Source: Isoetes taiwanensis (Eukaryota; Streptophyta; Lycopodiopsida; Isoetales; Isoetaceae). From it: 64,000 nt of DNA. Below, piece by piece: positions 2,834-48,954 of this stretch. Where the stretch lies: contig JAJEKV010000190.1 of assembly GCA_021234155.1 (NCBI GenBank), forward strand, positions 54,044 through 118,043. Reading direction: 5' to 3'. Under the pieces are notes generated by a model. It searched no databases and was not told the origin of the DNA. It was given only the letters and a program-made list of their open reading frames with translations. Each line of letters opens with the position of its first letter. Within the stretch, counting starts at the first letter, position 1. The position numbers and the translations under genes are program-made.

Positions 2834-3088
2834 TTAATAAGGTTCTCCTTTGATATGATTGGTAAGTGCATATCTTTCTTTCATTAGAGTTACCCCTTTG
2901 GTGTGTACTGTAAGGGCCGTTGAGTCTTCAAAATGTTGGACCAGCCTTCGCCTCGCTTGACCCCCTCGGCCTCCCCGCCTCGCTCTCGCCTCTCCTCTTT
3001 TTTGTTTCCTTCAAATTCTCCTTGGCCTCCTCGGCTGCTTCGCTTCTTTGTCGAGGGAGTCGAGTGGTCTCGCTTTGGTGCGCGCCAT
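2834..3088 (-). pseudogene. Histone H3-like ORF of element C, internally deleted
   Basis: An 85-codon frame starts MARTKAR, like the H3 N-terminus MARTKQTAR. It runs through an R/G/K-rich stretch and ends with a segment matching the end of H3: LVQHFEDS, then VHTKGVTLM (compare IHAKRVTIM), then HIKGEPY and a stop. One in-frame TGA sits at codon 26. Helices alphaN, alpha1 and most of alpha2 are missing, so it cannot form a full histone fold. Start and end share one reading frame. The leader repeats that follow are those found after the H3-like ORFs of elements A and B, which ties this copy to the same element family. It is a decayed copy; the H3 relation rests on tail plus C-terminal pattern together with context. 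Confidence 0.7.
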
Positions 3089-20910: not shown

Positions 20911-22506
20911 TGTGACGCTCCCTGCTAAACGTACGGCGCCCGGCCGCACACTCGGCAGGAAATCCCCCATCCGGCTCAACAACCGCATGGGCCCTTCGTC
21001 TACCCCGCACTCTGAGGTGACTCTTAGTGCGGAAGGGAACACGGTTGGTGTCTTGGCGCCGCCTTCCCCTATGGGCTCCTATAACAAATGAAGTTTATAT
21101 CAATGTAACTAGCATCAACATATACAAATACTACCTCGAAGGGTAGTGCATCACACATAAACCAAGGCAAAGATGATAATCACGAACCATAAAACATGAG
21201 AGCTCCTGCTAGGCCTCAAGATAGAGCAGACCGAGTCATGGCAATGGCGAGGGGTCGGCATAGAACAATGGCTAAAGTTGACCACTCCATCCATCCCCGT
21301 GCATACTTTGCAAAATGGGCTAGATCAGGCTCGACAGACTCTAGCCTTCCTGACACGCAATCCCATGGCATCACCCATCGGGACTACCCAGTTGCATCTC
21401 CCCGTCCGATGAGGCAGAAGGGTTGCATCTCCCTTCCCCAGATCTAGAGGTGCTGGGCGCTAGAGAATCGCGGGCGACACACGATTCGCACTGACCAACC
21501 CCCAAAACGAGAGCCAAGCCAACACTTGCAGCCTTCCGAGAGGCAGGGCAACACCATTGCCCCCAGAGGTGTTCCGGACCCATGCTCGCCCACACGGCGT
21601 GACCGACCATAAGCCTAGCCCACTATGGGATCCCCCGGCCCCCACTCTGGGCAGGGATCCTCCTCCACTTTCTCTCTAGCCCCAAGTATATGGTGCTGAG
21701 TCATATCATAGCCTCAATAGCCTGGGTGGGCTCCTATGCACAAAGCCGCAACTAATAGGAACTAAGGATCTACTCTAGAGCATACTACATATGGCTCTAG
21801 GTCTCTACCCCTTCCCAATACAAGAGGAGCAAACATGATCAACCATCATCACATAATCATCACATCATGAGAATAATCATAAGAAGAACATCTTAACCTA
21901 ATCATACAACTAACTAATGGTTAGGGTTCCTTGATTAGGGTTCAAGATGTTGAATATGGGTTCTAGGATGGCTCTACTCTAGATAATTAAGATACTAGCA
22001 CATCCGAATGCTAATTCCATGCATGAGCTATCACAACTACTATCCTACATACCGCCTCCTCAAGCTCTCCCTCCAGATCCGTGTGCCTCCATGGTCTCCG
22101 ACTCACGAGATGCCGCCCTACTCCAAGAACGAAGCCCACCCCGCCGGGCTGCCGCACCGCCTATGCCACAACAAACCATGTTCAAACGAGGTTTCAACGA
22201 AGTAGGTGAGTCTCCGGGTGCTAGGGCTGGAAAGAGGTCTAGGTTAGGGCTTTATGCCTATATAAGCTAGGGTCCACCCTAGGATGCCACGCGGCACCAA
22301 TCGGTGAGTCCCGCGGTGGCGGTGCCCCACAGGTTAAGGCCACGCGGATAATGGCTTAATCCTATGGTTGGCTAAGTTATGAGAATAACTTAGCCCATGC
22401 CCCTAGTGCCACAACCTATGGTATACAAGGCTATGAAGATAGATTTGTATAGTGATTTTATCCAGAATATAATGTATTTATGACGATATTCCCCTCGACC
22501 GCCACA
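20911..22506 (-). mobile_element. 3' LTR of element A
   Basis: Plus-strand reading TGTGACGCTC...GACCGCCACA gives TG...CA ends on the element strand. It aligns throughout with 31316-32967, differing mostly by short indels in GC-rich spots. A minus-strand TATA-like CTTATATAGG lies near 22257-22266. A conserved block at about 21278-21312 is shared with other LTR families in the window. Confidence 0.9.
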
Positions 22507-23400: not shown

Positions 23401-23439
23401 ACCAAGCCTGAGACCACTCGCCCATCAAACTCCTTTTTC

Positions 23440-24600
23440 ATAAACTCGGGTATTGCTTCTCCAAGTCTTGCTTCAATACCCATGTCGCATCTTCCACGGG
23501 CAAGTGCTTCCACTTAACCAAATACCGAGGAACTGAGACCTCCTAGTCTTCTTTGAATGACTTATCAAGAAGCAATTCAGCACTATTTCTACTTGCTCCT
23601 CCGGCCATTTCCAACAAGGTTGGAGTATCCAAAACCTCCTCGTGGTTAGGATTGTGCCTTTTAATAAACTTACGTGGAAGACCTTGTGAACCTTGAGATG
23701 GGCCGAAGATCCAACTTGTAGGCTTGAGAGAGCCCACTTCTCCAAAAATCTTGAACGGACCAGCCCACCTAGGGGCAAGCTTCTGCAGCTCCCAACCGCA
23801 GCCTTGGCTTGCTTCACCTTTATCTTCAACCGTGACGCCATCGCCTACCTTGAATTCTCTTTACTTGCCCCAGGCTTGTCGGCTACACTCTTTCCGCCGA
23901 CTTCTTGCCGCCAATAAGTAACCCCTTACTTCTTCCACTAGCCGCCTGATATCCCCTAACATCCGGCCGGATACTTCTACCTTGGACACGTGGATTGTGC
24001 CGTATCCCGGGTTAAGCACCGGCACCCGTAATTTACTATGAAAGGAGACATCCGAGATGACTCCTCGCTATAATCGCTGTAGGCTAATTCTCGCTGGCAA
24101 TCGCTAGGCGCATTCCACCAAGTGGATGTACTCATCCCACTTGGACCGCTTGTTCCACACATAGCTTCAAGCATGTCTTCAATGATCCGATTCGCCCCCT
24201 CCGCCCCGCCATCTGCTTGGGGGATGATATGCCGGCTCATGGAGAGCTTCGCCCTAATGGTGCCGAAGAGGTCCCGCCGTAAGGCACTCATAAACTTGGA
24301 ATCCCTATCGATATTATCTCCCGAGGCATGCCATGGAGTCTGAAAATCTCCCTTACAAATAACTTGGCAAGATTCAATGCGTGTCAAGAGTCTTGCAAGG
24401 CACAAAATGTGCCATCTTAGATAACTTATCTACGACAACCATCAATGCATCCTTGCCTCAAGAGTTCTAGGATACCGTGATGAAATCCATGCTTATGACC
24501 TCCCACTTTGCATTTGGCACCCTAATGGCTCAAGAGCACTGAACTGGGTTGCTCGCTTTTGGTCTCACGACATAACCGGGTAATCCCGAATATATGCAGC
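23440..24600 (-). pseudogene. Element A integrase with C-terminal chromodomain
   Basis: Minus-strand fragments in order: the start of the DDE core (MDFIT, then LMVVVDKLSKMAHFVP near 24430-24500); the core with DRDSKFMSALRRDLFG and the Glu-containing NRIIEDMLEAMC (23977-24405); the GPY/F-type module (KVHKVFHVSLLK near 23660-23690); and a chromodomain at about 23440-23590 reading YLVKWKHLPVEDATWVL. The chromodomain keeps the Y and W positions that form the methyl-lysine cage. Integrase inserts the cDNA; chromodomains of related elements steer it to H3K9-methylated chromatin. Several frameshifts interrupt the frame. Confidence 0.85.
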
Positions 24601-24649
24601 TATTCCGCTTCTTCATTCCCCGCCGTTAGCTACTTCAATCTTGAAATAG

Positions 24650-26130
24650 GTCTTCATGAAGCCAAAGATGGTTCTCGCTATTGGGTCTGTTATGTGTGTC
24701 ATGAAGAATTAGCTTCCTTACCCCCGATGATTCTGCACACACAACTTATGCTTGGATACAACAAAGTTGCCTTCCTTCTTATAATGCTTGAAGGCTTCCC
24801 CGCCTTTATCCTGCTCTCGCTTCCTTTGGAAAGACTTTCCCATACCTCCTTGAAGTCCACATCCGCTGGCAAGGACTCCTCAATCTTCTTGCCAAACTCA
24901 CTGAAGAGTGGAAATCGTGATTACAATGCGCCCTTGTCTCAATTGGTCTCCCCGAGAGGGCATCCGCTACAACATTAAGCTTACCAGCTTATATATAATA
25001 TCAAAATCATACTCCTCAAGGAATTCCATCCACCTCCTTTGCCTTAAGTTGAGGAGTGGCCGGGTGAAAAGATAATCAAGGCTCGTGATCAAGATCCAAC
25101 CTCAAACTTCCTTCCCAAACAGATAATGCCTCCATATCCTCAATGCCCCGACAATGGCTAGCAGCCCCTCGATCATGGGTTGGGTATGCTGTTCGGCGCC
25201 GCTCATCTTCTTCGAAGTCGTAGGCTTACTTACCCTTCCTTCTTGCATCAAGACTGCCCTCTGCTATCTTGCTTGCATCCGTTGTTACCAACTTATCTTT
25301 ACTCTGATCCTAAGAACAAGCACCGTGTCAAGAGTTAAGGCCTCTTTAAGCTTCTCAAAAGAAGCTTGGACTTTCTAACCAATGGCTAGTCCAATCCTTA
25401 ATCTTCTTGGCCTTAGTGAGGTCCCACAGAGGGGACGCCCACTTAGCAAAGTCCTTCACGAACTTTCTCAGAATATCCCGCCAACCCGAAAGCTTTACTT
25501 CGCCACATTCCTTTGGGCTGGCCAATCAACTATTGCCTCAATCTTAGATGGATCTGCGGAGATTCCTGATGTTACTACATGCCCCAAATACTCCACTCTA
25601 CCCTGCAAAGTGGCACTTAGAGAGCTTCCCATACAACCGATGATGTCTCAACTTCTCCAACACTTTCCCCGAGATGCCGACAATGCTCCTCAAGGGACTT
25701 GTCAGAGATTAGATGTCGCCAAGAAGACAATAACAAACTCATCCAAGAAGTCTCTCAAGATGTCGCTCATGAGGCGATAAACGCTTTTCGGAGCATTCGA
25801 TAGTCCAAAGGGCATTATCAGAACTCAAAATGACCATACCGCTCGAAAGCAGCCTTTATGGATATCCTCTTTTTATTCTTATCCGATGGTATCCTGACCT
25901 CAAATCAATTTTAGAGAATACCTTTGCTCCTTGTAACCGGGTCCATTAGGTCATCCGCCTTTGGCAATGCATACTTGTTCTTTATCGCCTCGCTTATTAA
26001 GCCGGGCGATAGTCTATGCACATTCTTAAGCTCCCATCTTTCTTCTTCACAAAGAGTATAGGTGTCTCAAAGGAGACACACTTGCTCTTATAAATCCAAG
26101 CTCGAAAGCAATTCCCGCTGCTTTTGAGCT
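24650..26130 (-). pseudogene. Element A reverse transcriptase and RNase H, plus integrase zinc-binding start
   Basis: Minus-strand order: RT fingers (KNKYALPKADDLMD near 25930-25980), an AFERYGHFEF stretch, then the catalytic region near 25700-25740. There the FxDD motif is broken by a small deletion (DEFVIVF is readable but the DD is lost). Next comes the connection domain (VEYLGHVVTSGISADPSKIE, 25550-25620), then FVKDFAKWASPLWDLTKAKK. The RNase H end ([20 protein letters not shown]) is at 24990-25060, and the HHCC zinc region at 24650-24800. Typical Ty3 pol order. Loss of the RT Asp pair as read here would abolish activity. Confidence 0.8.
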
Positions 26131-26399
26131 CAATCAATTTCGGGTGCTCATTCTATATGGCGCCATCGTAGGCTTCGCGATCCTGAGCCAATGTGATCTC
26201 ACATTCCACACCCCTATAAGGTGGCAAAATGCGGATTTCATCCGAAATACATCCTTGAACTCAAATAAGCCTTTGCTATCCGCTCAAGCAACTCATTCCC
26301 TTTTTGGGTCATTTCCTCCCGCTGCCTAGCTCAACCGCTTCCATCCTCAAGATGTAGTCCACCTTATTCTTTTCTATACTCTTCCTTAGTCGCTTCAAA

Positions 26400-29648: not shown

Positions 29649-30753
29649 CTAACAAAATTTACAAAATTTGAGGCCTAAGGCCTCTCTCTCTCTAATCCTC
29701 CTTGCTAAGTGAATATCCTTAGGCATAAGGGTAACTCTCTTAGCATGGATAGCGCATAGAGGTTCCTTCCTCAAGAGCCGACCAGCTCGCCGAAGCCTCT
29801 TGCAGGCCCGGTCATTAGAGGGGTAACCCTATAATCGGTCCGAATCGCTGCAACACACTCTCTAAGAAGACGCCGAAGGGCGCTTTCCTTATCGAGATTC
29901 GCACATCCGAAGTGCCGGACTCCCTAAACACCCGGGATGTGCTGTTCGCCCGTGGTGAACCCTCTTGGGTTTTTCCGCCTAGGTGGGGTGGCTTGGGCTG
30001 GTTCTTCTTCGCCTCGCCACCTTCCCACGACGCTTGCACCTCCCCGGGCGGCAATACTTTTATTGTACCTCGGCCCAACGACGGAAGGTACTTCCTTGTA
30101 TGCCACCATCTTCCGCTTTTAAACTCGCTGGGTCCCATTGAGAGCGAATGCCCGCCCCTACCTTTTTGCTTCTTCACCACCTTAGGTGGTTCCCGCCACT
30201 TGGGGTAGGGTGGCCTAGCGCCGAGGTCCTGCTGCCCCTCCTCCTCCTCTTCCTCCACTTGTGGCTCCTCCTCCGTTCGGGTTTTGAATAATTCCATCTG
30301 GCCCGGGCGCAGGCCCGGGCTGCCTTCTCTTTGTAATGCTTTTCTTGCTCCTCAGCCCCTTCCCGCCTCCCGCTTTCTTTCGGCCGCGTCTCTCCTCCTG
30401 CCACTCCGCACTTTTTCCTTCCCCTTTCTTTTGGGCACCGAGGGGCCCGCTTTTCTGGCCCGTGGTGGTGCTGCCCTCCACCGCTTCTTCAACTCGCTCT
30501 CCACCTCGTGTCCGAGGGCCCCGGGCGGCGCTGACTCGGCCCGCTCTTTGTGTTCCCGCCGCGAGGGGCTGCCATCGGGCTGCTCTCGCATCGTGAAAGC
30601 TCGGTCCGCCGGGCCGCCGCTGAGGGCAATTCGCTTCCGTGCTTCTCGGGCCGGCAGGTGCTCGAACTTTCTTCACGCGGTTTAATTCACCGCTACCAAG
30701 GCCATAGAGGGTGGGGCCCACCAAACTTCCTAGCTGTTTGTTTGGTGCGCCAT
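29649..30753 (-). pseudogene. Histone H3-like ORF of element A (H3 tail, long linker, H3 fold)
   Basis: It starts ATGGCG at 30753; two bases are missing, after which the frame reads TKQTARKFGG (30746-30717), nearly the H3 tail TKQTARKSTGG with K4 and K9 positions. A G/R/P- and K/E-rich linker of roughly 270 codons follows. The histone fold is at the end: IRKAPF and, one frame over, RRLLREC (29875-29855; alpha1, H3 has IRKLPFQRLVREI); LQEASASW (29805-29782) then LEEGT (alpha2, H3 LQEASEAYLVGLFEDT). Next comes [19 protein letters not shown] (29756-29700; loop 2 and alpha3), with stop at 29651-29649. Spacing between alpha1 and alpha2 fits canonical H3. Several frameshifts separate the pieces, but the last 37 codons are open. 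It lies on the element's sense strand between leader and gag. Confidence 0.85.
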
Positions 30754-31297: not shown

Positions 31298-31314
31298 ACA
31301 TCGCCTCGATACCA
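31298..31314 (-). other. Primer-binding site of element A
   Basis: Just inside the 5' LTR the minus strand reads TGGTATCGAGGCGATG, close to the plant initiator Met-tRNA site TGGTATCAGAGC. Element B has an equivalent at 37395. Confidence 0.75.
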
Positions 31315-31315
31315 T

Positions 31316-32967
31316 TGTGACGCCCTCGCTAAACGACGGGCCCTCGACACTTCGGGCAGAAATCCCCCATCCCGCCCAACAACCGCATGGGCCCTTCGCC
31401 TACCCCCGCACTCGAGGTGACTCTTAGTGGGAAGGGAACACGAAGGTGTCTTGGCGCCTTCCCCTATGGGCTCCTATAACAAATGGGCTTATATCACGCC
31501 GTAACTAGCATCAACATATACAAATACTACCTCAAGGGTAGTGCATCACACATAAACCAAAGCAAAGATGATAATCACGAACCATAAAACATGAGAGCTC
31601 CTACCCCGCTGCACTGTAAGGAGGATGACCGAACGCCAGGGCCTCAAGATAGAGCGCAATCGAAGTCATGGCAATGGCGAGGGTCTGGCATAGAACAATG
31701 GCTAGGGTTGACCACTCCATCCGCCTCCCCCCAGGCATACTTTTGCAAATGGGCTAGATCAGCTCGACAGACTCTAGCCTTCCTGATACGCAATCCCATG
31801 GCATCACCCATCGGACTACCTCCAGTTGCATCTCCCCGTCCGATGAGGCAGAAGGGTTGCATCTCCCTTCCCGTGATCTAGAGGTGCCGGGTGGCTAGAG
31901 AATCGTGGGCGACACACCCATCTGCACTGACCGAAACCCCCAAAACGAGAGCCAAGCCAACACTTGCAGCCCTCGAGAGGCGTGGCAACACCATTGCCCC
32001 CCCGTGAGGTGTTTCGGACCCATGCTCGCCCACACGGCGACCCCACCATAAGCCTAGCCCACTATGGGATCCCCCCAAGCCCCCCACTCCCGGCAGGGAT
32101 CCTCCCTCCACTTTCCCTCTAGCCCTCAAGTATATGGTGCCGAGTCATATCATAGCCTCAATAGCCCGGTGGGCTCCTATGCACAAAGCCGCTAACTAAT
32201 AGGAACTAAGGGATCTACTCTAGGAGCATACTACATATGGCTCTAGGTCTCTACCCCCTTCCCAATACAAGAGGAGCAAACATGATCAACCATCATCACA
32301 TAATCATCACATCATGAGAATAATCATAAGAAGAACATCTTAACCTAATCATACAACTAACTAATGGTTAGGGTTCCTTGATTAGGGTTCAAGATGTTGA
32401 ATATGGGTTCTAGGATGGCTCTACTCTAGATACAAGATACTAGCACATCCGAATGCTAATTCCTGCATGAGCTATCACAACTACTATCCTACATACCGCC
32501 CCCCTCAAGCTCTCCCTCCGTGCATCCGCAGGCCTCCATGGTCTCCCACTCACGAGATGCCGCCCTACCCAAGAACGAAGCCCACCCTCAAAGGGCTGCC
32601 GCACCAGCCATGCCACAAGAACGCCATGTTCAAACCCAGGTTTCAACGGTAGGTGAGTCTCCGGGTGCTAGGGCTGGAAAGAGGTCTAGGTTAGGTTTAT
32701 GCCTATATAAGTTAGGGTCCACCTAGGGATGCCACGCGGGCACCAATCGGTGAGTCCCGTGGTGGCGCGTCCCCCAACAGGTTAAGGCCACGTGGATAAT
32801 GGCTTAACCCTATGGTTGGCTAAGTTATGAGAATAACTTAGCCCATGCCCCCTAGTGCCACAACCTACTGGTATGGTATACAAGGCTATGAAGATAGATT
32901 TCTTGTATAGTGATTTCCATCCAGAATATAATGTATTTATGACGATATTCCCCGACCGACCGCCACA
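31316..32967 (-). mobile_element. 5' LTR of element A
   Basis: Starts TGTGACGCCC and ends ACCGCCACA on the plus strand. It pairs with 20911-22506 over its full length. A minus-strand TATA-like ACTTATATAGG lies near 32701-32711. It is followed by the target duplication GATGG at 32968-32972. Confidence 0.9.
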
Positions 32968-35755: not shown

Positions 35756-37392
35756 TGTGACGCTTCCAGACGCGATACGGTCCCGTGACGATAATCGCAT
35801 CGCCACACGCCGCATTACGCACCCCGACCGACGGTAATGTACCGACGCAGCCAAGGGGTAGCCCCTAGGGGCAACTTGCTAAGAATGTGCATTAGTATTA
35901 ATGTGCACATTTACCAATGTACACATTAATGTGGGCACACATTTCCATGTGGACACTTCATGCCAAGTGGGCCATACCCAAGTGTGCAATTAATGTGCAC
36001 ATTTACCAATGTAATGTGGGCACACATTTCCATGTGGGCACATTTTGCCACCTAGCCATTAAAGGCAGTATCCATTCCCACTATCCCACATGCCTAAAGG
36101 GGATAATTGGAAACCCTAGCCAACCCCATGTCTATTTAAGGAGGGAAACCCTAACTTACCCATTTTTCGCTTTCTAGGGTTTAGAGCTCGCTTTGGCTGC
36201 CTCAAGAGCTAAAACCACCTCCCACTCTCCCGAGAAATTGCACCGCTAGTTTCCCCGATTCGAAAGTGTTTCAAAGAGGGATGGTCAACTCCAGTCGAGG
36301 AGCCACTAAGGATCAGTATTTGGTTAATTAAATAGTCTAAACCTTATTTCACCATAGAATCAGAGGTTTAGCCTATTAAATTGCCCATAGCAGCCTTCTA
36401 GATCTCGAGATACTAGCCTCTAACTAAAGAACCTAACTCTATGATATAGATTAGATATAGTTCTTCGCTTCTTCCGGGATATATATGGATGATGTATCTC
36501 TATGAACTCCTTGTATTGGGAAGGGGGTAGAGACCCTCAAGCTTGGTAGTAGATGCTCCTAGATTAGCCTCTCTAGCACACTATAGATTCGCCCCGGTGG
36601 GCAAGAACCACACCTGGGTTGGGGTGAAGGGGCCGACCGCTAAGAAGGAGGTTCATGTTCCGACTTTGAACCATCCCTCTCCGTGTGTAAGGCCTACCAG
36701 GGATCATAGTGACTAGGTCTAATGGCCTACCACCGAAAGTGTGGGTAGGGCATGGACTCGACACCGAAGTGGTGTACACTTTCCGCTGGTTCACCAGATA
36801 CCCGCAAAGGGGTCTCTAGTCACCTTGAGCCGCATGCATCTCTCGAGGGATCGATCCCTTCCTGCCCCATCGGAACTGGGAGGATGAGACCCAGGAATAG
36901 CCCCTTTGGCTATGCATTCGGCGGGCTACAGTCAGGTCCCGACACTTTTCAGCCTTACTCGCAAAGTGTGCACAAGAGGGGCGGATGGAGGGACAACCCT
37001 ATGCCATGTTCATATGCCGCCTAAATCCATTGCCATGAATTCTCGTCAAGAATGAACTCGAGACCCAAGCCAGCCACCATCCCTCGAAGTCCGAAGTCTT
37101 GGGTAGGACTCCCCATATGTATTGTGCTCACCTTGTTTATGCAGATGTGATGGACCACCCTTTGAGGTGGTTATGTGCTTATGTTATATACTGACATGTA
37201 TGTTTACGCTTCCGCAGCTAGGTAGGCCCCCGAGGGAGCGGGTAAAATGACCCCTTCACTCTTCCCACCGAACCCGGCCATGGTTGCAAAGTGTCATGTG
37301 GAGGGCCCCGGTGACGGGCATGGAGCCGGTATGGGGATGAACTCGGTTGTATACCTCGGAGTGCACCGTGATATGCAGTAGGGGACGCCACA
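35756..37392 (+). mobile_element. 5' LTR of element B (shared with the upstream partial copy)
   Basis: TGTGACGC...GGGGACGCCACA. The U3 part has two long sub-repeats (35891-36050) built on AATGTGCACATTTACCAATG and ACATTTCCATGTGG. A TATA-like TCTATTTAAG lies at 36131-36140, and a plant telo-box AAACCCTAA at 36146-36154. A block at about 36961-37000 is shared with LTR family A and the LTR at 51866. Confidence 0.9.
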
Positions 37393-37394
37393 AA

Positions 37395-37410
37395 GGTATC
37401 GTGAGCAATG
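37395..37410 (+). other. Primer-binding site of element B
   Basis: GGTATCGTGAGCAATG two bases after the LTR end resembles the initiator Met-tRNA complement TGGTATCAGAGC. The following TTCTTGGTGACCAAGA is also conserved in element A. Confidence 0.7.
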
Positions 37411-37599: not shown

Positions 37600-37863
37600 C
37601 ACACGTCACTGCCGTGACGTAAAATGAGATTCTCATTTTCGGCCAAGGGCGAACGCAGAGACATTCAAATTTGAAACATACAAAAAGTCATAAATTACGT
37701 AAAAGTAACTTGATAATTCTAATTATGAGTTAAGAATTAGTAAAATTAGCATGTTATATGTGTAGAAAGCATAAAATATAGCAAGAGGGTTCACATGTTC
37801 TTCACACCTCGCCTGTGAAGCAGAAATGAGCTTTTCATTATCTATTCAAGCAACGTGAGACCA
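37600..37863 (+). repeat. Hairpin leader cassette 1 of element B
   Basis: Two stem-loop repeats, at 37600-37663 and 37802-37863. The first holds AAAATGAGATTCTCATTTT, a 9+1+9 palindrome. The second has CAGAAATGAGCTTTTCATTA. Both resemble the pair at 39428-39693 in sequence and order. Confidence 0.75.
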
Positions 37864-37938
37864 TGTTTAAATTTAGGTGTTTTAGATGTTTTAGGCAACC
37901 CAAAAGGTAGTTTGAAGTTTGACCTAAAAATCGACCCC

Positions 37939-37946
37939 TATAAATA
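37939..37946 (+). promoter_or_regulatory. TATA box before the H3-like ORF
   Basis: TATAAATA lies 112 bases before the ATG at 38051, followed by a C/T-rich leader containing AAGGCGATCTT. The same layout recurs at 39875 before ORF2. Confidence 0.6.
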
Positions 37947-38050
37947 GACCTCCTCGACCCCTCATTTTTCGCTGCATCCTGCTTAGAAAAATCTGCTTCC
38001 TTTGCCAAGGCGATCTTCCGCGATAGCTCGGACGGGCGAATCGGCCAAAC

Positions 38051-39298
38051 ATGGCCCGCGACAAAGCGCACCGCCGTAAAGCCTCACGACGCGATCCTAG
38101 CCAAAGGACCCCGGCCTGATTCAGAGGATATTGCAAGAACGCCTTTTCTGGCAAGGCGAATCTTCTTCCAGCGAGGAGGAGGAATCGGACCGGAGCGACC
38201 AAACGGAGGTCATAGAGGAGGAGCGGCCAGACATTATATGGAGCAAATTCTCGAGGAGATCGCAGAGGAGGAGAGGAGAAGCAGGGAGCAACGGGAACAG
38301 ATAGGGCAGCCGACAGTCGAGGAGCAACTCGAGGCTTGGGCCCGTCTGCAGGAGGAGGAGGAGAGAGGGAGGCAGCGGCAGCCGCGGCTTAGCCCTGCCG
38401 AAGAAGCAGACCTCGCGGCCTTCATCAGTAAGTATGAAGACAAGGAGCCACGAGCAGAGGACTAAGAACCGAAGACGCACTCCAACCACAAATGGCGGGT
38501 CAAGAAGAGGAAGGCCAAGAGCATCAAGGCGGGCGCGTAAGAGTCGTTATTGGTAAGCCAGCTGGTCCCGTGATCAATGAACCATCAGGCGAGCAAACCC
38601 CACCTTCTACCGACGACTCGGACGAAGATTACGTCCCCAACACTGAGGGGGCAAGTTCCTCGAAACCCCCAATCGCAGAGAAGGAGGTACCGGAGCCGGT
38701 GGTACCTGATGAGCAGCAGCCTGGACAGCCGCAGAAGCCCCCACCTTTCCCGACGTGGGATAGGGTTAAAGCCCCGCGGCCACAACGGAGGTATACGCGG
38801 ATAGACCCGGCCAAGGTCTATCAAGAAGATTAAGGAGCACAATGCCTATATGGCTGGCGGGGAGGCATACAATGCTTATTACCGCTAAAGACAGTGGTAA
38901 CGGACAATTGAAGGCGGACACCCGACGAGGAGTCAGACCCTGAAACCGCCACCACCAAAGCCCAAGCCTCCCAGAGCACCAGGGAAGAAGCGGACCAAGA
39001 GCAAGCAGAAGGAGCAGAGGGCCCTCAAGGAAATCCGGCACTTCCGCAGAAGTTACGGACTCTTGATCCCTGCACCGCTTTCAACGCTTTGGTCCGAGAA
39101 GTCATGCAGAGTACAACACCTTACACGCGGGTGACCGATGAGATGTTGCCGTGGTTCACAGGAAGCGCAGAGGCTAAAATAGTGCAGATTTTGAAGATTC
39201 AACGCCCGCACCGCGGCACGCCAAGAGGGTCACGCCATGAGGCAGATATATTTTTAGCCGCATTACACATCAAGGAGAACGCCTTTGAACTTTTGTAA
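38051..39298 (+). pseudogene. Histone H3-like ORF of element B (H3 tail, acidic linker, H3 fold)
   Basis: Starts MARDKAHRRKASRR, like the H3 tail MARTKQTARKS. A linker of about 290 codons follows, first acidic (38160-38465, many E with a LAAFISKYE stretch), then proline-rich (38492-38833). The C-terminal part is an H3 fold in several frames: RALKEIRHFRRSYGLLI (39018-39068; alphaN, H3 ALREIRRYQKSTELLI); FNALVREVMQ (from 39080; alpha1, H3 FQRLVREIAQ); AEAKIV (alpha2, H3 AEAYLV); FEDS then HAKRVT (39217-39234; loop 2). It ends ADIFLAA and HIKEN (alpha3, H3 DIQLARRIRGE). The stretch after LVREVMQ to AEAKIV is 25 residues, as in canonical H3, without the loop-1 insert usual in CENH3. At least three frameshifts separate the pieces. 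The acidic linker is histone-chaperone-like in composition only. Confidence 0.85.
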
Positions 39299-39427
39299 AT
39301 AATGAAAATTTTGTTAATATAAGGAATTTTTGTGTAAATAATGAGTCCAATCTTGTTTAATTAAGTTAAGATATCGATTTCGATTTTATTTTGGTTAAAT
39401 TGGAGTTTTGAGCAAAATTGAGACGAT

Positions 39428-39693
39428 GTCTCACACGTCGCCACAGACGTAAAAATGAGATTCTCATTTTCGGCCGGGCAACGCGGTGAGACCATGCCCA
39501 AAATGCCCAAAACCGCCTCCAAATCGACTAAATAAGGGGTCAATTCTGCCTAACTCGGGCGAAGTTTAGTAGAATTACAGCCTTAGATTATCCAAATTGA
39601 TTAAGTTTAGCCATTTAGAACTCCATAGTCTCACACGCCGCCACCAGACAGAAATGAGCTTTTCATTATCTGGCCCGGCGCAACGCAGAGACC
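39428..39693 (+). repeat. Hairpin leader cassette 2 of element B
   Basis: Two stem-loops. At 39428-39493, outer arms GTCTCAC / GTGAGAC enclose the palindrome AAAATGAGATTCTCATTTT. At 39627-39693, outer arms GTCTC / GAGAC enclose CCAGA...TCTGG and AAATGA...TCATT. The inner sequences differ but pairing is kept. It duplicates the pair at 37600-37863. Confidence 0.8.
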
Positions 39694-39874
39694 TCCTCGC
39701 CCATTTTCTTCACCAAATGATCTCCAAATTGTTGCAATAGGTTCATTAGTCCATCTTAGCATGCTCAAACCCTAGAAGTAGTCTTCAAACCCCCAATTGC
39801 ACCCTTTAATAGATCGTAATCACCCAATCTCAGTAAAGTCTAGGTCATCCAAAAATTAGGGTTTTTCCCTTTTC

Positions 39875-39882
39875 TATAAATA
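39875..39882 (+). promoter_or_regulatory. TATA box before ORF2 of element B
   Basis: TATAAATA followed by GGTCCCCC and a leader with TTAGGCGATCTTT, 123 bases before ATG at 39998. Matches the cassette before the H3-like ORF and the one in element A at 28977. Confidence 0.65.
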
Positions 39883-39997
39883 GGTCCCCCATTTCTCATT
39901 TAGCACCCTGCAAGTTTGCTCTCCACTGCTTAGGCGATCTTTCAGCTCCCTGAGGTGCTTCTGCATCCGCTTGATATTCCCTTCTTCGCTAGATCAA

Positions 39998-41450
39998 TGG
40001 CCACCGCCGACTTCAGCGATGGTACAAATAGCCAAAGGCCCATGTCGCCGAGGCGGATGTCAACGACATCTTCCAAGTCTTTGGGAAAGAAATTGATATC
40101 CAAGTTACGCTAAATGCAACCCCAAAGATATAGGCAAGTGTTAGCAGAGTTTCAAGCTAGGGTAGGACCCTCCCTTGTTCAGTTCCCCCTGCATAGGATA
40201 TTTCGCTCCCTCCATCCCTTCATGTACTTTGGGCTATGTCCCCAACATCGCCAAGTACTTAACTAACAAGGCGCAGAGGGTTACCAGACTACATGGTCCC
40301 GACAGCCAACAGACCAAGTAGTTCTCTTACACCGCCGCTTTAGCTATTTTCCTATCCCACCGCGTTCCGAAACCCAATGGGGCAACCCCTATCCCTCCGA
40401 TGGAGGCGGACCCCATAGCAGTCCAAGCCGAAGAGCGATGCTTTTGGCAAGACAAAGAAGAGCAAGAAGGAAGGGAAGAAGAAGAGGAGTCTGGACGCAT
40501 CTAAGAGTACACCGAGCTAGACTCGAAGAGGAACGGCGACATAGCGTAATAGGAGCTGGTCAACTTCGAAAGCGAGCCGCGCATCTATCGTAGTTGTTCT
40601 CCCACTTGGGCTAGGCATCACAAGCCTAGCCCCTATCATCATCAACGAGAGGAGTATCTACTCCTCACCACATCCGTAACCTCCCCGAATGTAGGGAGAG
40701 GGAGTCCGATTGATGAACTGCTTCCACCAACCGCGGCAGACCGACATGGACGACTTCATCGCCCCGGGGAGTCTCGACTTCCCGCCTCAAGTCGTGGAAG
40801 CCGACACCTACTTAGGGAAAGCGACTTCCGGCATCCAAGCATACAAGAAAGATAAGGCGTGCTATGGAGACCAGAGACCGCCATCCGAAGAAGAGTTCCT
40901 CGCCATCCGTGAATGGATGGGGATCAAAGGCAAGACCACTAGCATCCCGATGCCGAGTCCTCGACACCACCTCCCCGCAAGAGGAGAGAAGAATCGACCA
41001 GCGTAGTCGACTCCACAATCAAGATTACCGAGCTCACCGAGATAGAGGTCGCATTTAATATGCATAGCATAGAGCAGAGGCCAAACAAGTGGGGAATCAT
41101 CCATGACCCACAACGACAAAGTCACCGAGGTACTACCGCCATCGCCGCTAGACGGAGAATAGCGTGGTACACCGCAAATTCAGCCCTAGGGGTGAGGAAG
41201 GAGTGTTCATGCCGATTGCACTCTCGCTTCTAAGCAGCACACCCGAATAGCCGCAAATGTCGACTATCCCAGAGAGCAATGGCACTTGACCTTCTTCGAC
41301 TTCATACCCCATCGACGCCAAAGAGATTAGCTGCGGTCGCGCCCTCACATCCGACCGCAGAGTGGAAGACTTGGCGCAGAGCCTTGCCTGCGCTCGCCAA
41401 GCCGCCTTCGTGAACTCATTCGGTGGGAACGGCCCAAGTTAAGAAGTTCC
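39998..41450 (+). pseudogene. ORF2 of element B, unrecognised protein
   Basis: Begins ATGGCC with ADFSDGTNSQ and continues through frameshifts. Coding-like stretches: DVNDIFQVFGKEIDIQVTLN (about 40050-40110); GYVPNIAKYLTNKAQRVTRL (about 40230-40290); an E-rich run near 40440-40500. Then MDDFIAPGSLDFPPQVVEAD (from about 40746), PPSEEEFLAIREWMGIKGK (about 40880-40935), STIKITELTEIEVAFNMHS (about 41010-41070) and REQWHLTFFDFIPH (about 41265-41310). I match no known family. It has its own TATA/leader cassette. It could be an extra structural or regulatory protein like the unknown ORFs before gag in some giant Ty3 elements. Confidence 0.45.
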
Positions 41451-41689
41451 TTGAGGATAACCCATCTTACCGGCGATTTCAAGATTAGTTAGACTCTTGA
41501 TCCCGGAGACTTTTTGTACCAAAATATTATATAATATAAATATAATTTCTTGTTGCACTTCAAATGCTTTGTTGATGTAATTTGTGTCCCCAACTATACC
41601 AACAAACATAATAATGCAAGAGAACAAGCTAAAACTAACTATATAGCCATGAACTACTTGTGTATGCAGCTAGAGGCCTAGGCTCAGGG

Positions 41690-42940
41690 GAACGACAATG
41701 CCGAGACCATATGGAAGAACAGAGTCCACCCAGGCCACCCCCAGCAAGGAACCTGTTCGAGGAATTTGGACCCATAACCCCATAAGAGGAAATATCACAT
41801 ATGAGAACGGACTTGGAGCAGATAAAGGCTTTGCTGGCCGCACAAGCAGGAGCGGGGTCGGTGGGCAACGCTCAGTTGCCTCAAGCATCAGCTCGGAAAA
41901 CGGGAAGGGACAAGAAGAGGAGCAAGAGAAGGAGGTCCTCCAGCTCGGAATCCTCCGACTCAAGTTCAGATTCAGACTCCGACTCCGAGGAAGACGAAGA
42001 GCAGACCCAGGACCGAACAGATGGAAGGCAGAGGAACACTGCAGATGCAAGGCGGAGGGACGCCATAGAGGGACGACAAAGGGACACCAGGGCCTCTGAC
42101 TACCAGAAGAAGGTAGATTCTCGCGACCGGCAATGTATGGAAGGTCTCTGAATCGAACAGCCTTCTGGGAGAACAGTCGATTAGAAGCAGAGGCATGGCT
42201 GGACGAAATGAGTGAGTACGGCAATGCTTATGGCATGAAGGATAAAGACAAAGGCAGAGTGGCAACAGCCAACTTGAAAGGAGCCGCACGGATTTGGTGG
42301 AAGGGTTATGCAAAGGCACATGGCTTAAGCAGGGATGCTTGTAAGTTCAGAAAGTTTGCTAAAGCCTTCAAGCCATTACGTCCCCAAGGGAGCACAAGTC
42401 CAAAGATGATGCAAAAGAAGTTCTACAAAGTTGCAACAGGGAAACAAATCAGTCCGAAATACACAGAGGAATTCATGAGGCTAAGACTTTATGTGCCAAA
42501 GGGCTTAAAAACATGCGGTAGAGAGCTACATTGAGGGCCTCTAATGAGGAGATCCGCAAGCTTGTAAGGGCAATAAATCCTAAGACAAGATCGTGGCAGA
42601 GTCCAAGGCAATAAGCTTGCAAGGAACAGACCTCGTAATAGCGGGCGAGGCAGCAAAGATTACCGTGATAAAGGCAAGGCAACAGGGAGTTATAGCCCTA
42701 GGGCAAACCACCCAGTCCAAATTAGAGCCCCATATGGTGGCAAACTGTGGGAACAAAGCAGAGAAGAAGCAGTGTCCTTCAAGGACAAGCTGTGAGGGGT
42801 CAAACTACTCCAAAGAAGTGCGATCCTTTTTGCAGCTATGCCCAAGGAAAAGAGACAGAGTGCATAGAAAAAGCAGCTTTTGCTTCGTGTGCTTCCAACC
42901 AAAGCATAGGACAAAATAACTGCCCCTTACGCCATGAGTG
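41690..42940 (+). pseudogene. Element B Gag: SR-rich arm, capsid, zinc knuckle
   Basis: 41801-42151 holds a basic then S/D/E-rich arm (KKRSKRRRSSSSESSDSSS). 42133-42534 is capsid-like: NRTAFWENSRLEAEAWLDEM, YGMKDKDKGRVATANLKGAA, RIWWKGYAKAHG, then FAKAFKPLRPQG and EEFMRLR, the Retrotrans_gag pattern. A CX2CX4HX4C knuckle (CFVCFQPKHRTK, then C after a one-base shift) is at about 42880-42925. Gag binds RNA and forms the particle. Two or three frameshifts; the arm composition resembles RS domains of splicing factors. Confidence 0.8.
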
Positions 42941-43015
42941 CAAAGACTAGGAGTTGGGAGATTGGGACACTCATTCGACGACGACGGGCGAGGAAGGCGA
43001 CTACATCTGTGGTGA

Positions 43016-43615
43016 GTGTCACATCTTGCCGCAATAGATACAGAAAAGCAGAGAGCCAAGATAAAAGTAATTTCCACGAGAGGGAAGGCCAAGACCAAGT
43101 CCTTCATAGTCTTGATAGACTCAGGAAGTAGCCATAACTTTGCATCCCCCAGAATGGTTCAAATGTTGAAGTTGAAACCACTAAAGTCAAAGCCAAGGCC
43201 CGTTATCTTAGCAAGTGGAGCAATAAGGCAGACGGCAGGCAAGAGAATTAACTTCGACATCGGCTTGCCAGGGATTAATATCCAGATGGGGGCAGAAGTA
43301 ATGGGCATTGTCAAGTATGACCTGATCATAGGAATGGAGTATCTTGGGCCAGCAGGAGCCATTATTGATTGTGGAAAGCGGAAGGTGACTTTCCCAACAC
43401 CCGACGGCAAGATCATTGAGATCACAGGTAAAGAAGTTGTTCCCATCATGCAGTGTATGTCTTCTAAACGGCTGCTCAAGTGCATCAAGAGCGAGCAGGT
43501 AGCATACATCTTCAAGCTTGAGATTGATGAACCAGAGTCAGGAGAAAGCAAAGAAGACAAGGTGCTCAGCAAGTTGTCGAAGCAAATAGCTAAGCTGATC
43601 ACGGAGTTCCAATGA
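43016..43615 (+). pseudogene. Element B retroviral-type aspartic protease
   Basis: A 199-codon open stretch with the active site VLIDSGSSHNF (Asp at residue 35), a flap-like region, then LIIGMEYLGPAGAIIDCGKR, matching the second conserved motif of Ty3 proteases. It releases mature Gag and Pol proteins. The frame is intact across the domain and in the usual place between zinc knuckle and RT. In the intact element it would be part of the pol polyprotein, so the internal Met is not a true start. Confidence 0.88.
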
Positions 43616-43689
43616 TCTCTTTCCGTGATGAGATCAAACAGCCTTCCTCCTTATGGGGAGTCGAAAGTGAGATAGCACTCGAACCGAAC

Positions 43690-44400
43690 GGTTTACAAGT
43701 AAGGCTCCATACAATGACGACGACGCCAGGAGCTGACGGAGCTAAAGAAGCAATTGCAGGAGTTGCTCGACCTAGGCTTCATTAGACCTAGCGTCTCGCC
43801 GTTCGGAGCGCCCATCCTGTTTGTTAAGAAGAAGGATGGCAGTTTAAGGATGTGCATAGACTATAGGCGCTGAACAAGCACACCATTAAGAATAAGTATG
43901 CGCCCCCCGTGCATCGATGATTTGATGGATCAGCTCCAAGGTGCAAAGGTCTTCCAAAAATCGACTTAAAGTCGCTATCATCGATCGATAAAGGAAGAAG
44001 ATATCCACAAGACCGCCTTCAACGCGTATGGGGCATTATGAGTTCACTGGATGCCTTCGCTTATCGAATGCCCCCGCTGACGCTCATGAGGCTCATCAAC
44101 CATACATCTTCGTGGAGTTCTTAGACACCTTTGTGATTGTATTCTTTGATGACATTTTGGTATATAGCATCCCTTTGAAGAGCACGCATAACACTTAAGG
44201 AGAGTGCTAGAGAAGTTGAGGAGGCACCAGCTTGTACGCCAAGTTGTCGGGCGTCACTTCGCAAAGGGAAGGTGGAATACCCGGGTCATGTGATCTCAAA
44301 GAGAAAGGAATCCTCGACGATCCTCGCCAAGATTGAAGCCGCTATTCAAAGGGTCGGCCAAGAATGTGCATGAAGTCGGGTTTTCTACTAGCAGGTACTA
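43690..44400 (+). pseudogene. Element B reverse transcriptase
   Basis: [20 protein letters not shown] and [15 protein letters not shown] mark the fingers; NKHTIKNKYA, IDDLMDQLQGAKVF and EEDIHKTAFN follow. The palm motif FFDDILVYS at 44142-44168 keeps both catalytic Asp. Then HLRRVLEKL-type and GHVIS-type connection pieces. It copies element RNA to DNA. A few-base loss after CIDYR and several other shifts break the frame. Confidence 0.85.
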
Positions 44401-44539
44401 CAGAAGTTCAGAAAAGAACTTTGTTAAGATAGCGCCCCGCTAATGTAATTTGACGAGGGCGGAGAAGGTGAAAGATTGGGCGCAGCATTGGCACAAGAAA
44501 GCCCAAGTGTGGTTTGAATTGTTGAAGGAAGCTTTAACA

Positions 44540-44960
44540 ACAGCCCCAAATTCCCAACCCCCGCTGACCCGCAGAAAGATAAGCTTGTAGCGATAGACGC
44601 GAAAAAGATAGCTACAAAAAGCAAAGGCTCATGCAAGAAGAGCGGTGGTAGCGCATGATTCCGTGAAGATGAACGACGCCGAACGCTGCCACCCCACCCA
44701 CGATCAGGAATTGCTTGCGTTGTCGTGGCATTAAGAATTTGAGGCACTATCTTTTGGGAAGGAAGTTCCAACTTGATACGTACCATCGAGCCTCCAAAGA
44801 TATATTCACGCAACCACACCTCAACCCGAGGCGAGAAGGTGGATGGAGTTCCTTGAAGAGTATGACTTTGATATAGTCTACAAGCCGTGGAAGCTCATCG
44901 TGGTAGCGGATGCGCTTTCAAGGCATCCCCGACAACTAGAGTGCATTGTAATGCAATTTC
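44540..44960 (+). pseudogene. Element B RNase H
   Basis: Fragments of the Ty3 RNase [59 protein letters not shown] and VVADALSRHP. It removes RNA from the RNA-DNA hybrid. Frame shifts separate the pieces; order and spacing are those of chromoviruses. Confidence 0.8.
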
Positions 44961-45059
44961 GACGCCTCCAAATACTTTGGTAAGAAGATTGAAGAGTCCT
45001 TGCCAACGGACGTGGATTTCAAGGAAGTATGGGCAAGCCTCTAGGGAGGCTAGAAATGT

Positions 45060-46370
45060 ATAAGGAGCAGAAGCCTTTAAACATTATAAGAAGGAAGGCA
45101 ACCTGTTATACCATAAGAACAAGTTGCGACTCAATCATCGTGTAAGGAAATTGATCCTTCATGACATGCACAACAGCCCAATAGCCGCCATGCGATTCAT
45201 GAAAACATACTTCAAAGTGCGCGCAGCAGCCTATTATTGGCCAGAATGAAGAAGCAAGTAGCTCGCTACATCGAGAATGTCAGCCTATGTCGCCAGACGG
45301 CGGCGCAGCTTCAACCTGTGAGCATTAGAGCCATTAGCGTGCCAAACGCTTAAGTGGGAGGTGATCAGCATGGATTTCATCACTGTGGCTTCCAAGAACA
45401 AGAAGGGGAAAGGATGCCTTGATGGTAGTGGTCCATAAGTTGTCGAAAATGGCACATTTTGTGCCTTGCGTAACCACAGATATGGCTATGGATACAAAGA
45501 AAGCTCTTCACCAAAGAGATCTTCAGTGCCATGGCATGCCAAGGGAGATTATCTCCGGCAGTGATCCGGTTTATGAGTGCCTTCCGGCAAGACCTCTTTA
45601 TAATTATTCAAATAAAGCTATCCATGAGCACGCATATCATCCTCGACGGATGGCCAAACGGAGCGGACCAACAGATTTTGAGGACATGCTACTTTAACTA
45701 TGTCCGAATAAGCAAGGTATGTGGAAGAATTTATCCACTTGGTGGAGTTTGCATACAATAGCACCAAGGTGAATCATCCCAAATGTCGCCGCTTATGATT
45801 AATTACGGCTATCGCTGTTTAACCCCGCATTACTTGGCACAACCCCGTGGTCAAAAGTGGAAGTTTTGGCAGCCAGATGTTGGGCGATATGCGCCAGTGG
45901 GAAGAAGTTAGAGGATATTTGCTAGCAGCAATAAGTCGATTTAAGAGCATCACACAAGCAATCGAACAGTGAGAGTTCAAAGTTGGAGATGATGTTTGGC
46001 TCAAGATCAAGGTGAAGCAGCAAAGCTCAAGATTGGGAATTGCAAGAAGCTTGCTCCAAGGTGGGCCGGACCTTCGTAATAGTCAAGAGAGTAGGTAATC
46101 AATCCTACAAGCTAGACTTGCCAAAGACACCTAAAGATTCATAAGGTCTTCCACGTGAGTTTGTTGAAGAAGCACACTTCAAATCCGCATTTAAGTCTTG
46201 GACACTCCAACGCTGTTGGAAATGACAGAAGAGCACCGAAATAGTTCCGCAATTGATTCTTGATAAAGCTTTCAAGAAAACAAGGAGGTCGGAGTTCCTC
46301 CAATATTTGGTTAAGTGGAAACACTTACCTGGGAAGACGCGACGCGGGTACTTAAGAAAGATCTAGTAAA
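45060..46370 (+). pseudogene. Element B integrase with C-terminal chromodomain
   Basis: HHCC zinc region at about 45118-45300 (LILHDMHN...CRQ). DDE core: first Asp in MDFITVASKNKK (45370), second in IISGSDPVY (about 45548-45574), Glu near 45680 after a shifted stretch. The GPY/F module at about 45990-46170 reads VIVKRVGNQSYKLDLPKTPK, then VFHVSLLKKH. The chromodomain at about 46255-46365 has LQYLVKWKHLP; its ATW part is frameshifted. It integrates cDNA and may target histone-marked chromatin. The chromodomain is the same type as in element A. Confidence 0.85.
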
Positions 46371-46379
46371 GCAAGACTC

Positions 46380-47299
46380 CGCAGTTTATGGAGCAATGGG
46401 ACGCAAAGTCATCTCCGGGCGAAATCGGCTCAGTACGTCGATTTGTGTAGATTAGTTCTTGTATAGTTAAGATTAATCACGCATGCAACCCATGCTAGGT
46501 ATGGGTCGCATGCGCCGTTATCGGCGATGGGACCACTACGGTGATCTCTAGGGCGGGTGTAATGTCAATGTAGGCATGACCGCTGCCGCTTGGGCGAAAG
46601 TGGAAGGTAGATCCAAAGTCTACTAAGTAGACGACTTCGAGAGAAAGGGAGGTCATTAAGGAATGCACCGATAGGAAAAACACCTCTAGCCCCATATATG
46701 CTTTGATAGGAGGAATCAGCCTTCACGCCCATATACGGAAGGACCTATCCTCCACGCCGGCAACTAGGGTGTAGGCATGAGCGCATATAGGCATATAGGC
46801 GCCATCTCCACGGCCATAATGGAAGATTCACCCTTCCTACGGAGATTAGCCATGCATCCATGTAGATAGGTGGGGTGGTCACCATATAACCAAAATTTTA
46901 TTAATAATTAAAATGGTACTAACATAGTGTCGACTGCCAATAGAGCCCCGAGGGCAAGGAGATCGAAGATGAAGACTTGCAACACAAATTTTGTTGGAAT
47001 GTGTTGCAAGGAATGAAGAGTACCCCTCAACAATAATTGTAGTTATGAAATGATAAATTCTTGATAAACTTAATTGTTGTGATAAGTAAAACTATCGAAA
47101 GTAACTTACTTAAAGATGTTATGAATTGATAAGTTATTTTATAATATAATGGCGGCCATAATGTTCTAAAAAAAATATTACCTTAAGGTAATCTTAATAA
47201 ATGTGTAAATATCATAGTAGTATATCGTATGTATCGTGGTGATTGTAGGTTAGATGATCCCAAGGTGGAGACCCACGACCTGGACAAAGATCATTTCAG
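46380..47299 (+). other. Long 3' non-coding tail of element B
   Basis: About 0.9 kb without coding signal; its last third is AT-rich (46900-47230). It is nearly the same as 34800-35740 in the truncated tandem copy. Confidence 0.6.
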
Positions 47300-47310: not shown

Positions 47311-48954
47311 TGTGACGCCTCCAGACGATAGATACCGTCCCGTGATCGATAATCGCATCGCCTCACACACGCACACGCCACCGACCGACGCTGTAGCCAA
47401 GTGGGTAGCCCCTAGGGGCAACTTGCTAAGAATGTGCATTAGTATTAATGTGCACATTTTACCAATGTACACATTAATGTGGGCACACATTTCCATGTGG
47501 ACACTTCATGCCAAGTGGGCCATACCTATGTGCAATTAATGTGCACATTTACCAATGTAATGTGGGCACACATTTCCATGTGGGCACATTTTGCCACCTA
47601 GCCATTAAAGGCAAGGGCCCCATTCCAACATCCCACATGCCTAAAGGGATACTCTTGGAAACTCCTAGCCAACCCATGTCTATTTGGCTGAGGAAACCCT
47701 AACTTACCCATTTTTCAAGCTTCTAGGGTTTTTAGAGCTCTGCTTTGGCTGTCAAGAGCCAAAACCACTTCCTGCATTCTCGGCCCCAGAGAGAATTGCA
47801 CTGGCTAGTTTCCCCCTGATCTGAGTGTTTCAGCGTGATGGCTCTAACCTGTGTCGAGGAGCCACTAAGGATCAGGTATTTGTCAATTAAATAGTCTAAA
47901 CCTTTATTTCAAATATAGAACAAAGAGGTTTAGCCTATTAAGCTGCCTGTATATGTTCTAGATCTCTAGATACCTCTAACTAAAGAACCTAACTCTATGG
48001 ATATAGATTAGATATAGTTCATTTTTCCGTGATATATGGATGATGGGATCTCATGAACTCCTTGTATTGGGAAGTGTAGAGACCAAGCTTGGTAGTAGAT
48101 GCTCCTAGATTAGCCTCTAGCACACACTCATAGATCTGGCCTGGGTATGCCAAGAACCACACTCAAGTCAGGGTGAAGGCCACCAAGAAGGAGGTTCATG
48201 TTCCTCGACTTCTGAACGCATCCTCCGGGTGTGTGCAAGGCCTACCAGGATCATATAGTGACTATAATCTAATGGCCTATCACCGAAAGTGTGGGTAGGG
48301 CATGGACTCGACACCCGTGAAGTGGTGCTACCTTCCAAAGGGTTCAGCTCATACGGGCAAAGGGTCTCAGTCACCTTTGGAGTCAGTAATAGTGATCTCC
48401 TGGAGGGAGCGATCCCTTCCTTATTCTACCTGAACTGGGAGGATGAGACCTGTGAATAGCCCCTTTGGCTTAATCGGGCGGGCCAAGGCCAAAGTCCCCG
48501 ACATCTCTTTCAAACTTACTCCGCAAAGTGTGCAGCCGAGGGGCGACGGGAGGGACAACTCCTTATGCCATGTTCATATGCCGCCTAACCATTTCCATGA
48601 ATTTCGTCATAATGAACTGAGACCTGCCGGCTACCATCCCCTCGAAGTCCGAAAGTCTTGGGTAGGACTCTATATGTATTGTGCTCAATTCTGTTTATGT
48701 AGATGATGGACCACCTTGAGGTGGATATGTGCTTATGTTTATGCATAATCGACATGTATGTTTACGCTTTCCGCGTAGCCAGGTAGGCCCCCGAGGGAGA
48801 TCAGGTAAATGACTCTTCACTCTTCCCACTGAACTCCGCCATGGTTGGGTAAAGGTTTCATGTGGAGGGTCTCAGACGGGCATGTGGAGCCGGGTATGGG
48901 AGGAACTCCGGTTGTACTCTGCGAGTGCACCGTGATACAGTAGGGGATGCCACA
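47311..48954 (+). mobile_element. 3' LTR of element B
   Basis: TGTGACGCC...GGGGATGCCACA; pairs with 35756-37392. U3 sub-repeats at about 47440-47590. The TATA-like stretch is altered here (TCTATTTGGC). The shared block is at about 48530-48565. Confidence 0.9.

Follow-up and report, generated by a model that had tools for sequence, protein, structure and literature searches.

The window, by which we mean the whole 64,000-nucleotide stretch of Isoetes taiwanensis DNA analysed here, holds three LTR elements, A, B, and C, and in each of them a broken gene for a histone H3-like protein (ORF1) occupies the same place, the leader of the element (Table 1). Elements A and B carry a second extra ORF (ORF2) downstream of the H3 ORF; both ORF2s begin with MA and have DGT within their first ten residues, and the ORF2 pieces of A and B that we tried against Pfam matched no family.

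Table 1. Features of elements A, B, and C in the window, in order of position
Feature	Position	Strand	Details
ORF1 remnant of element C	2834..3088	-	MARTKAR, then FEDST..VHTKGVTLM; fold mostly lost
LTR of element C (aligned part)	4597..6195	-	76% identity to 5' LTR of B
3' LTR of element A	20911..22506	-	purine tract adjoining; target duplication CCATC 20906-20910
pol of element A	23433..26131	-	terminal chromodomain-like stretch 23524-23433
ORF2 of element A	from about 28869	-	between H3 ORF and gag
ORF1 of element A (H3-like protein; gene broken)	29649..30753	-	tail RTKQTARK 30749; C-terminus 29759-29679
Primer binding site-like sequence of A	31303..31314	-	TGGTATC..
5' LTR of element A	31316..32967	-	target duplication CCATC 32968-32972
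5' LTR of element B	35756..37392	+	TGTGACG...CCACA
Primer binding site-like sequence of B	37394..37406	+	
Putative promoter of ORF1 of B	37938..37947	+	CTATAAATAG; 113 bases 5' of H3 ATG
ORF1 of element B (H3-like protein; gene broken)	38051..39298	+	tail 38051, spacer, H3 fold 39018-39298
H3-type tail start, element B	38051-38086	+	MARDKAHRRKAS
alphaN, element B	39018-39068	+	RALKEIRHFRRSYGLLI
alpha1, element B	39080-39109	+	FNALVREVMQ
alpha2, element B	39167-39184	+	AEAKIV
loop 2, element B	39217-39234	+	HAKRVT
alpha3, element B	39242-39262	+	ADIFLAA
Putative promoter of ORF2 of B	39874..39883	+	CTATAAATAG; 123 bases 5' of ORF2 ATG
ORF2 of element B, broken	39997..41490	+	between H3 ORF and gag; end approximate
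gag to protease of element B	41674..43612	+	weak Retrotrans_gag, RVP_2
pol of element B	43739..46390	+	67% identical to A 26131-23439; chromodomain-like 46238-46321
3' LTR of element B	47311..48954	+	purine tract GGGGGAGAA 47302-47310 just 5'

The original prediction, made from the letters of element B, had named six peptides running from an H3-type tail start to alpha3, and all six are indeed found where it placed them (38051-39262, plus strand), spread over three reading frames, so that there is no intact ORF. Tail and fold are separated by about 930 bases encoding a charged spacer, which comes to 302 residues when the pieces are joined and is 40% E, Q, R, and K; the tail itself reads ARDKAHRRK and keeps only K4 and K9 of the H3 tail, and its start ranks second of 1403 plus-strand ATGs by likeness to MARTKQTARKST. 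In a frameshift-tolerant local alignment, the canonical H3 core scores 82 against element B (peak end 39234); 150 dinucleotide-shuffled versions of the window had a mean of 39, a standard deviation of 3.5, and a maximum of 50, which corresponds to a fitted p of about 7e-8. Pfam PF00125 matches the joined fragments, with X at the joints, at 4.7e-11 (43.5 bits, cut-off 26.4), the single-frame piece 38901-39131 alone reaches 0.047, and 38912-39295 alone has no Pfam match. The canonical spacing from alpha1 to alpha2 that had been claimed for B also holds, the alignment to canonical H3 being free of gaps from alphaN to loop 2. A histone signal is thus significant in B by both Pfam and shuffles.

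A scan of both strands with the H3 core gives three peaks above shuffles: A at 141 (ending at 29679, minus), B at 82, and C at 74 (ending at 2843, minus); the maximum of a 12-shuffle null was 42. The best scores for H4, H2A, and H2B in the window were 43, 38, and 40, all within 12 shuffles. The full-length H3 query added a fourth peak of 52 at 30267 (minus; 12 shuffles reached at most 44) which lies within A's own spacer and which we put down to the basic, tail-like composition of that spacer and do not count as a locus; the idea that ORF2 might be H2A-like was dropped at a score of 33, inside the null.

Element A has the highest score of the three: i) its tail, RTKQTARK, stands at 30749 (minus) in a frame different from that of its ATG; ii) a 27-residue H3 C-terminal piece at 29759-29679 is found by plain tblastn at 1.3e-9; and iii) PF00125 matches at 4.7e-14 when the pieces are joined and at 5.6e-9 for a single-frame piece. 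In both A and B, alphaN, alpha1, loop 1, alpha2, loop 2, and alpha3 are all present and in order; of these six fold parts, C keeps the loop 2 region. The C remnant is detected by tblastn against the window at 9e-4, and its start, MARTKAR, which keeps MARTK, ranks first of 1443 minus-strand ATGs by H3-tail likeness; it has no Pfam match, and with the open relative P0001 (below) as query it scores 45, inside the null. C is therefore the weakest of the three candidate loci, and its assignment as an H3 remnant stands on the H3 score, the MARTKAR start, and DNA similarity to B. At all three loci the H3 gene runs through several frames and contains stops.

Element A has all four of a TG...CA LTR pair, a primer site, a purine tract, and a 5-bp target duplication; element B has an LTR pair with the same end type, a primer site, and a purine tract, and we take the primer-site-like sequences of both to be of the initiator-Met type. 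No target duplication was found at the outer ends of B, as expected in a tandem array; the stretch to the left of its 5' LTR (33906-35755) repeats B's pol end and post-pol stretch and belongs to another copy, indicating that B sits in a tandem array with a shared LTR (33906-48954). Since the K2P distance between B's two LTRs is 0.228, as against 0.089 between the post-pol repeats, the two LTRs may not be a true pair. In C, the leader (2490-2850) is 74% identical to B 39272-39634, the primer site is missing, and no gag was identified in this decayed minus-strand element.

In B, Pfam finds RVP_2 at 1.5e-9, above the cut-off, and Retrotrans_gag at 0.0031, below it; the gag and protease pieces of A gave no Pfam matches, and A 27544-27669 is 71% identical to B gag over 127 bases. 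The start of B gag (41786-42148, plus) is Arg/Ser-rich and then acidic, with a weak likeness to SR-25 (0.0018, below cut-off). The pol genes of A and B align over about 2.8 kb at 67% identity, whereas alignment of their LTRs is confined to short pieces. None of 10 broken gag-pol pieces passed the Pfam cut-off (one matched SH3_Tf2-1 at 0.0063); against the PDB, one gag-pol piece found a reverse transcriptase/RNase H chain at 0.074, Ty3 at 0.17, and unrelated G-alpha chains at 0.2, and among five window pieces so compared a useful match came from one RNase H-like piece only. On both strands the highest chromodomain-like score falls at the end of pol, in A (57, YLVKWKHLPVEDATW) and in B (42); in 60 shuffles the mean was 39 and the maximum 58, so that A lies just below the maximum and B near the mean. 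The elements are likely Ty3/gypsy chromoviruses, a label based on the protease, the order of the genes, and this sub-threshold chromodomain match. Elsewhere in the window, outside A, B, and C, a reverse transcriptase piece (RVT_1, 17578-18168, minus) matches at 1.4e-20; tRNA and Rfam scans had no matches.

The H3 region is present in all three elements of the lineage that have a leader in the window, and is not peculiar to the copy in which it was predicted. When the DNA from the 3' part of the H3 gene into its 3' flank is compared, the scores are 51 for the A-B pair, 128 for C-B, and 54 for A-C, above null maxima of 36, 41, and 37. In none of the three comparisons did any of 200 shuffles reach the observed score, and the A-B alignment extends beyond the H3 stop. 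No link between A and B could be drawn through the remaining DNA, where similarity was not clear against 200 shuffles: the score was reached by 100 of 200 for the spacer, 24 of 200 for the tail, and 4 of 200 for the leader ahead of the ORF. Because these parts are not clearly similar, they have either changed fast or may differ in origin. The residues RHF are common to A and B; at this site canonical H3 reads RKY, and the six open relatives described below read RKY, KKY, or RRY. Since the pol genes of A and B are just 67% identical and no more than short pieces of their LTRs can be aligned, the H3 gene is old in the lineage; and since the cassettes of A, B, and C resemble each other past the H3 stop despite unlike LTRs and 67% pol identity, a single old acquisition is indicated. 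We consider it very probable that this lineage of elements has an acquired H3 gene among its parts.

The H3-like protein has relatives with open reading frames. With the joined B fragments as query, 5 of 6513 candidates were found at E <=10, all five with a Histone domain, at E-values of 2.3e-6, 1.3e-5, 0.013, 0.085, and 0.22, two of them below 1e-3. The C-terminal part of P0002 as query brought 210 candidates past 1e-3, and among the best 120 of these 210, over which the comparison was made, six close relatives stand at <=3e-17, followed by other H3 variants from 1.5e-12. The six (P0001, P0002, P0003, P0057, P0123, and P0124) come from contigs of 1.2-2.2 kb; they are 194-402 aa long, match Pfam Histone at 6e-25 to 3e-36, and are built alike, with a charged spacer, a Pro-rich linker, and an H3 fold. 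Two of them, P0003 and P0123, have the full tail MARTKQTARK, MARTKQTARKTE, and the other four start within the spacer; in four relatives the spacer measures 171-282 residues and is 44-56% E, Q, R, and K. K4 and K9 are retained in P0003, P0123, A, and B, which is every visible tail apart from that of C. A structure predicted for P0123 as a monomer, from six sequences, has long spacer helices (pLDDT 80-95 at residues 91-250) and a poor H3 part. A separate profile search, in which 6598 of 8000 scored candidates passed (120 listed), was dominated by ordinary and tandem H3, and a scan of viral contigs with the family alignment produced 119 pattern matches, none of them confirmed.

B and A relate differently to these proteins. 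B scores 105 with P0001, 100 with P0002, 99 with P0124, and 85, 71, and 67 with the rest, against 82 with canonical H3; when the linker is included P0001 is the best of three traced queries for B, at 120 (60 shuffles, at most 51). For A, canonical H3 at 141 is far closer than the relatives at 77-101. Loop 1 is one residue longer in all six relatives, but of canonical length in A and B. In a table of 24 H3 fold positions across the eight sequences (A, B, and the six relatives), R83, H113, K115, R116, T118, D123, and L126, which are positions of DNA contact or of the H3-H3' joint, are kept in 8/8, and R69 in 7/8. The other 17 of the 24 positions vary, including R63, R69, and R72: R69 and R131 are missing in B, E97 and D106 are missing in A, and R63 is substituted in B and in 5 of the 6 relatives.

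The breaks in the window copies can be compared with the decay of the surrounding element DNA. Over about 1.6 kb, the LTR copies of A differ by 43 indel events and 112 substitutions and those of B by 47 indel events and 308 substitutions; the LTR and post-pol repeat pairs show 25-30 indel events per kb, half of which, about 12-15 per kb, falls to each copy (14-15 per kb from the LTR copies). At that density, broken frames would be expected in an H3 gene of 1.1-1.25 kb even if it had been whole at insertion. Indels are frequent relative to substitutions in the LTR pairs of A and B and the differences are often clustered; the high share of indels could in part be assembly noise.

The leader of B also contains candidate promoters. 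CTATAAATAG occurs twice in the window, both times on the plus strand and in the B leader, ahead of ORF1 and of ORF2, where 0.025 occurrences are expected per strand; each of B's two extra genes thus likely had a promoter of its own, judging from the sequence. Element A has CTATAAAAATAGG 118 bases 5' of its ORF2 ATG and AATAAATAGG 141 bases 5' of its H3 ATG, but these TATA motifs are looser and not rare (CTATAAAAATAGG is expected 1.3 times per strand). Apart from these motifs, blastn finds a hairpin-capable module of about 60-80 bases in the B leader before ORF1 and before ORF2 (37599-37656 and 39431-39484, plus), further copies of which can be made out by eye near 37795 and 39627 (plus) and, decayed, in C near 2696 and 2502 (minus). 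Two facing ACGTCA hexamers lie at 37603-37620 (plus), 5' of the H3 ORF of B; this hexamer is a motif of plant histone promoters.

Hosts silence LTR elements largely by way of histone H3 marks. The explanation that we favour, with moderate confidence, combines an acquired H3 gene kept by the lineage with an H3 variant, made by the element, which enters nucleosomes and weakens silencing; of its two parts, the nucleosome mechanism is put forward tentatively, as one possibility. According to this explanation, i) a chromovirus-like lineage would have acquired a host histone H3 gene on a single occasion, prior to the separation of the A and B/C families, and retained it in first position in the internal region, with the second extra ORF and gag-pol following; ii) the gene would be transcribed from its own promoter or from the LTR; iii) the H3-like protein would enter the nucleus, pair with host H4, and be deposited in nucleosomes on host or element DNA; and iv) its altered tail, in which the end with K4 and K9 is retained and the remainder is swapped for a long, charged, probably helical spacer, would block or misdirect host silencing marks, favouring expression or integration of the element. 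The basis of this explanation is the H3 homology, the common place of the gene in three elements, the DNA similarity of its 3' end, and the TATA boxes of B. It is further supported by the seven fold positions kept in all eight sequences, the six open relatives, and the retention of K4 and K9. Counted against it are the three broken copies, the varying fold positions, the closeness of A to canonical H3, the two relatives with which B scores lower than with canonical H3, the four relatives that start within the spacer, the lack of clear similarity between A and B in spacer, tail, and leader DNA, the score of C with P0001 inside the null, and the TATA motif of A, which is not rare. In a bolder form, the lineage might build its own nucleosomes, a selfish H3 on element DNA or integration sites being partly beyond the reach of silencing marks and working beside the chromodomain integrase; we regard this form as somewhat unlikely.

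The main rival to a nucleosome variant is an element H3 that acts off the DNA, its tail and helical spacer binding and sequestering H3 writers, readers, chaperones, or H4. The retention in P0003 and P0123 of the first tail residues, with K4 and K9, ahead of a long charged stretch in place of the remainder would suit such a decoy, as would the long helices predicted for the spacer of P0123, but a pure decoy would have no need of the seven DNA-contact or H3-H3' positions that all eight sequences keep, and we judge it unlikely.

Slightly less probable, in our estimate, is a chance passenger, a copy of a host H3 gene that the element picked up but never put to use. The gene is broken in all three window copies, and a review of plant LTR elements puts transduced host genes on record (PMC7264820); the breaks, however, are accounted for by decay after insertion at the per-copy indel density given above, and neither the common place and similar DNA of the gene in elements whose pol genes are 67% identical, nor the conserved fold positions, nor open relatives of up to 402 aa are what a useless passenger would lead one to expect.

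We also considered whether the element had captured a centromeric H3 (CENH3) that steered it to centromeres. B does score slightly better with Arabidopsis CENH3 than with canonical H3, 90 against 82, and trees that unite B with the whole set of CENH3 rows, or with those of plants, are not rejected (p-AU 0.37 and 0.45). Against this, two other plant CENH3s score 81 and 69 with B; A scores 141 with canonical H3 and 87-96 with three plant CENH3s; and B is closest to P0001, P0002, and P0124. The loop 1 of CENH3 is longer than that of H3, whereas A and B have the canonical length. In the trees, the rows of both of which were hand-chosen from the listed proteins, the extended relatives fall outside the ten CENH3 rows, and B groups with the relatives at a support of 99/99 on a very long branch; A and B both have very long branches and all tested placements were left unrejected, so we make no use of tree placement for either. 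CENH3 identity is not supported by these comparisons, and we hold it to be very improbable. Finally, unrelated H3 pseudogenes or random peptides that came to lie in the elements by accident might account for B peptides in several frames, but the three loci share one position and a similar 3' flank, and their H3-core scores (141, 82, and 74) all exceed the maximum of 50 seen in 150 shuffles. The idea is already contradicted by these results and deserves hardly any credence.

We found no report of a histone gene in an LTR element in the open-licence PMC literature; the word histone is absent from the main text of the review on extra ORFs in plant LTR elements (PMC7264820), and the section on a survey of 121 angiosperm genomes mentions no histone among the extra domains (PMC9289625). 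Among the sources cited, the nearest precedents are a transposon gene and the histones of viruses. In Pyrenophora tritici-repentis, a hAT DNA transposon carries an H3-like gene (H3L) and, like the elements here, combines the H3-like ORF with another ORF of unknown function (PMC3538342); but it is a DNA transposon of a fungus and its copies are nearly identical, whereas the H3 genes here sit in LTR retrotransposons, go back to an old acquisition shared by families that have diverged, and have a long spacer that sets the tail apart from the fold. Among viral histones, a bracovirus H4 has an N-terminus lengthened by 38 residues, and single H3s also occur in viruses; they resemble the element H3 in being one histone with an extended or altered tail; entry into host nucleosomes is known for H4 and otherwise presumed, but these histones belong to DNA viruses and their relatives, and the main text of the review describing them does not use the word retrotransposon (PMC9145170). 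Orchid Ty3/gypsy elements carrying an m6A demethylase ORF offer, with a different gene, a case of plant Ty3/gypsy elements that, like the lineage here, retain an acquired host-type gene (PMC9289625).

If our preferred explanation is true, an element lineage with an H3 of its own would directly counter host silencing, and would offer a natural experiment on the tail positions of H3 that matter for silencing. It would also add LTR retrotransposons, which in many plant genomes are the commonest mobile elements, to the viruses and DNA transposons that carry histones.
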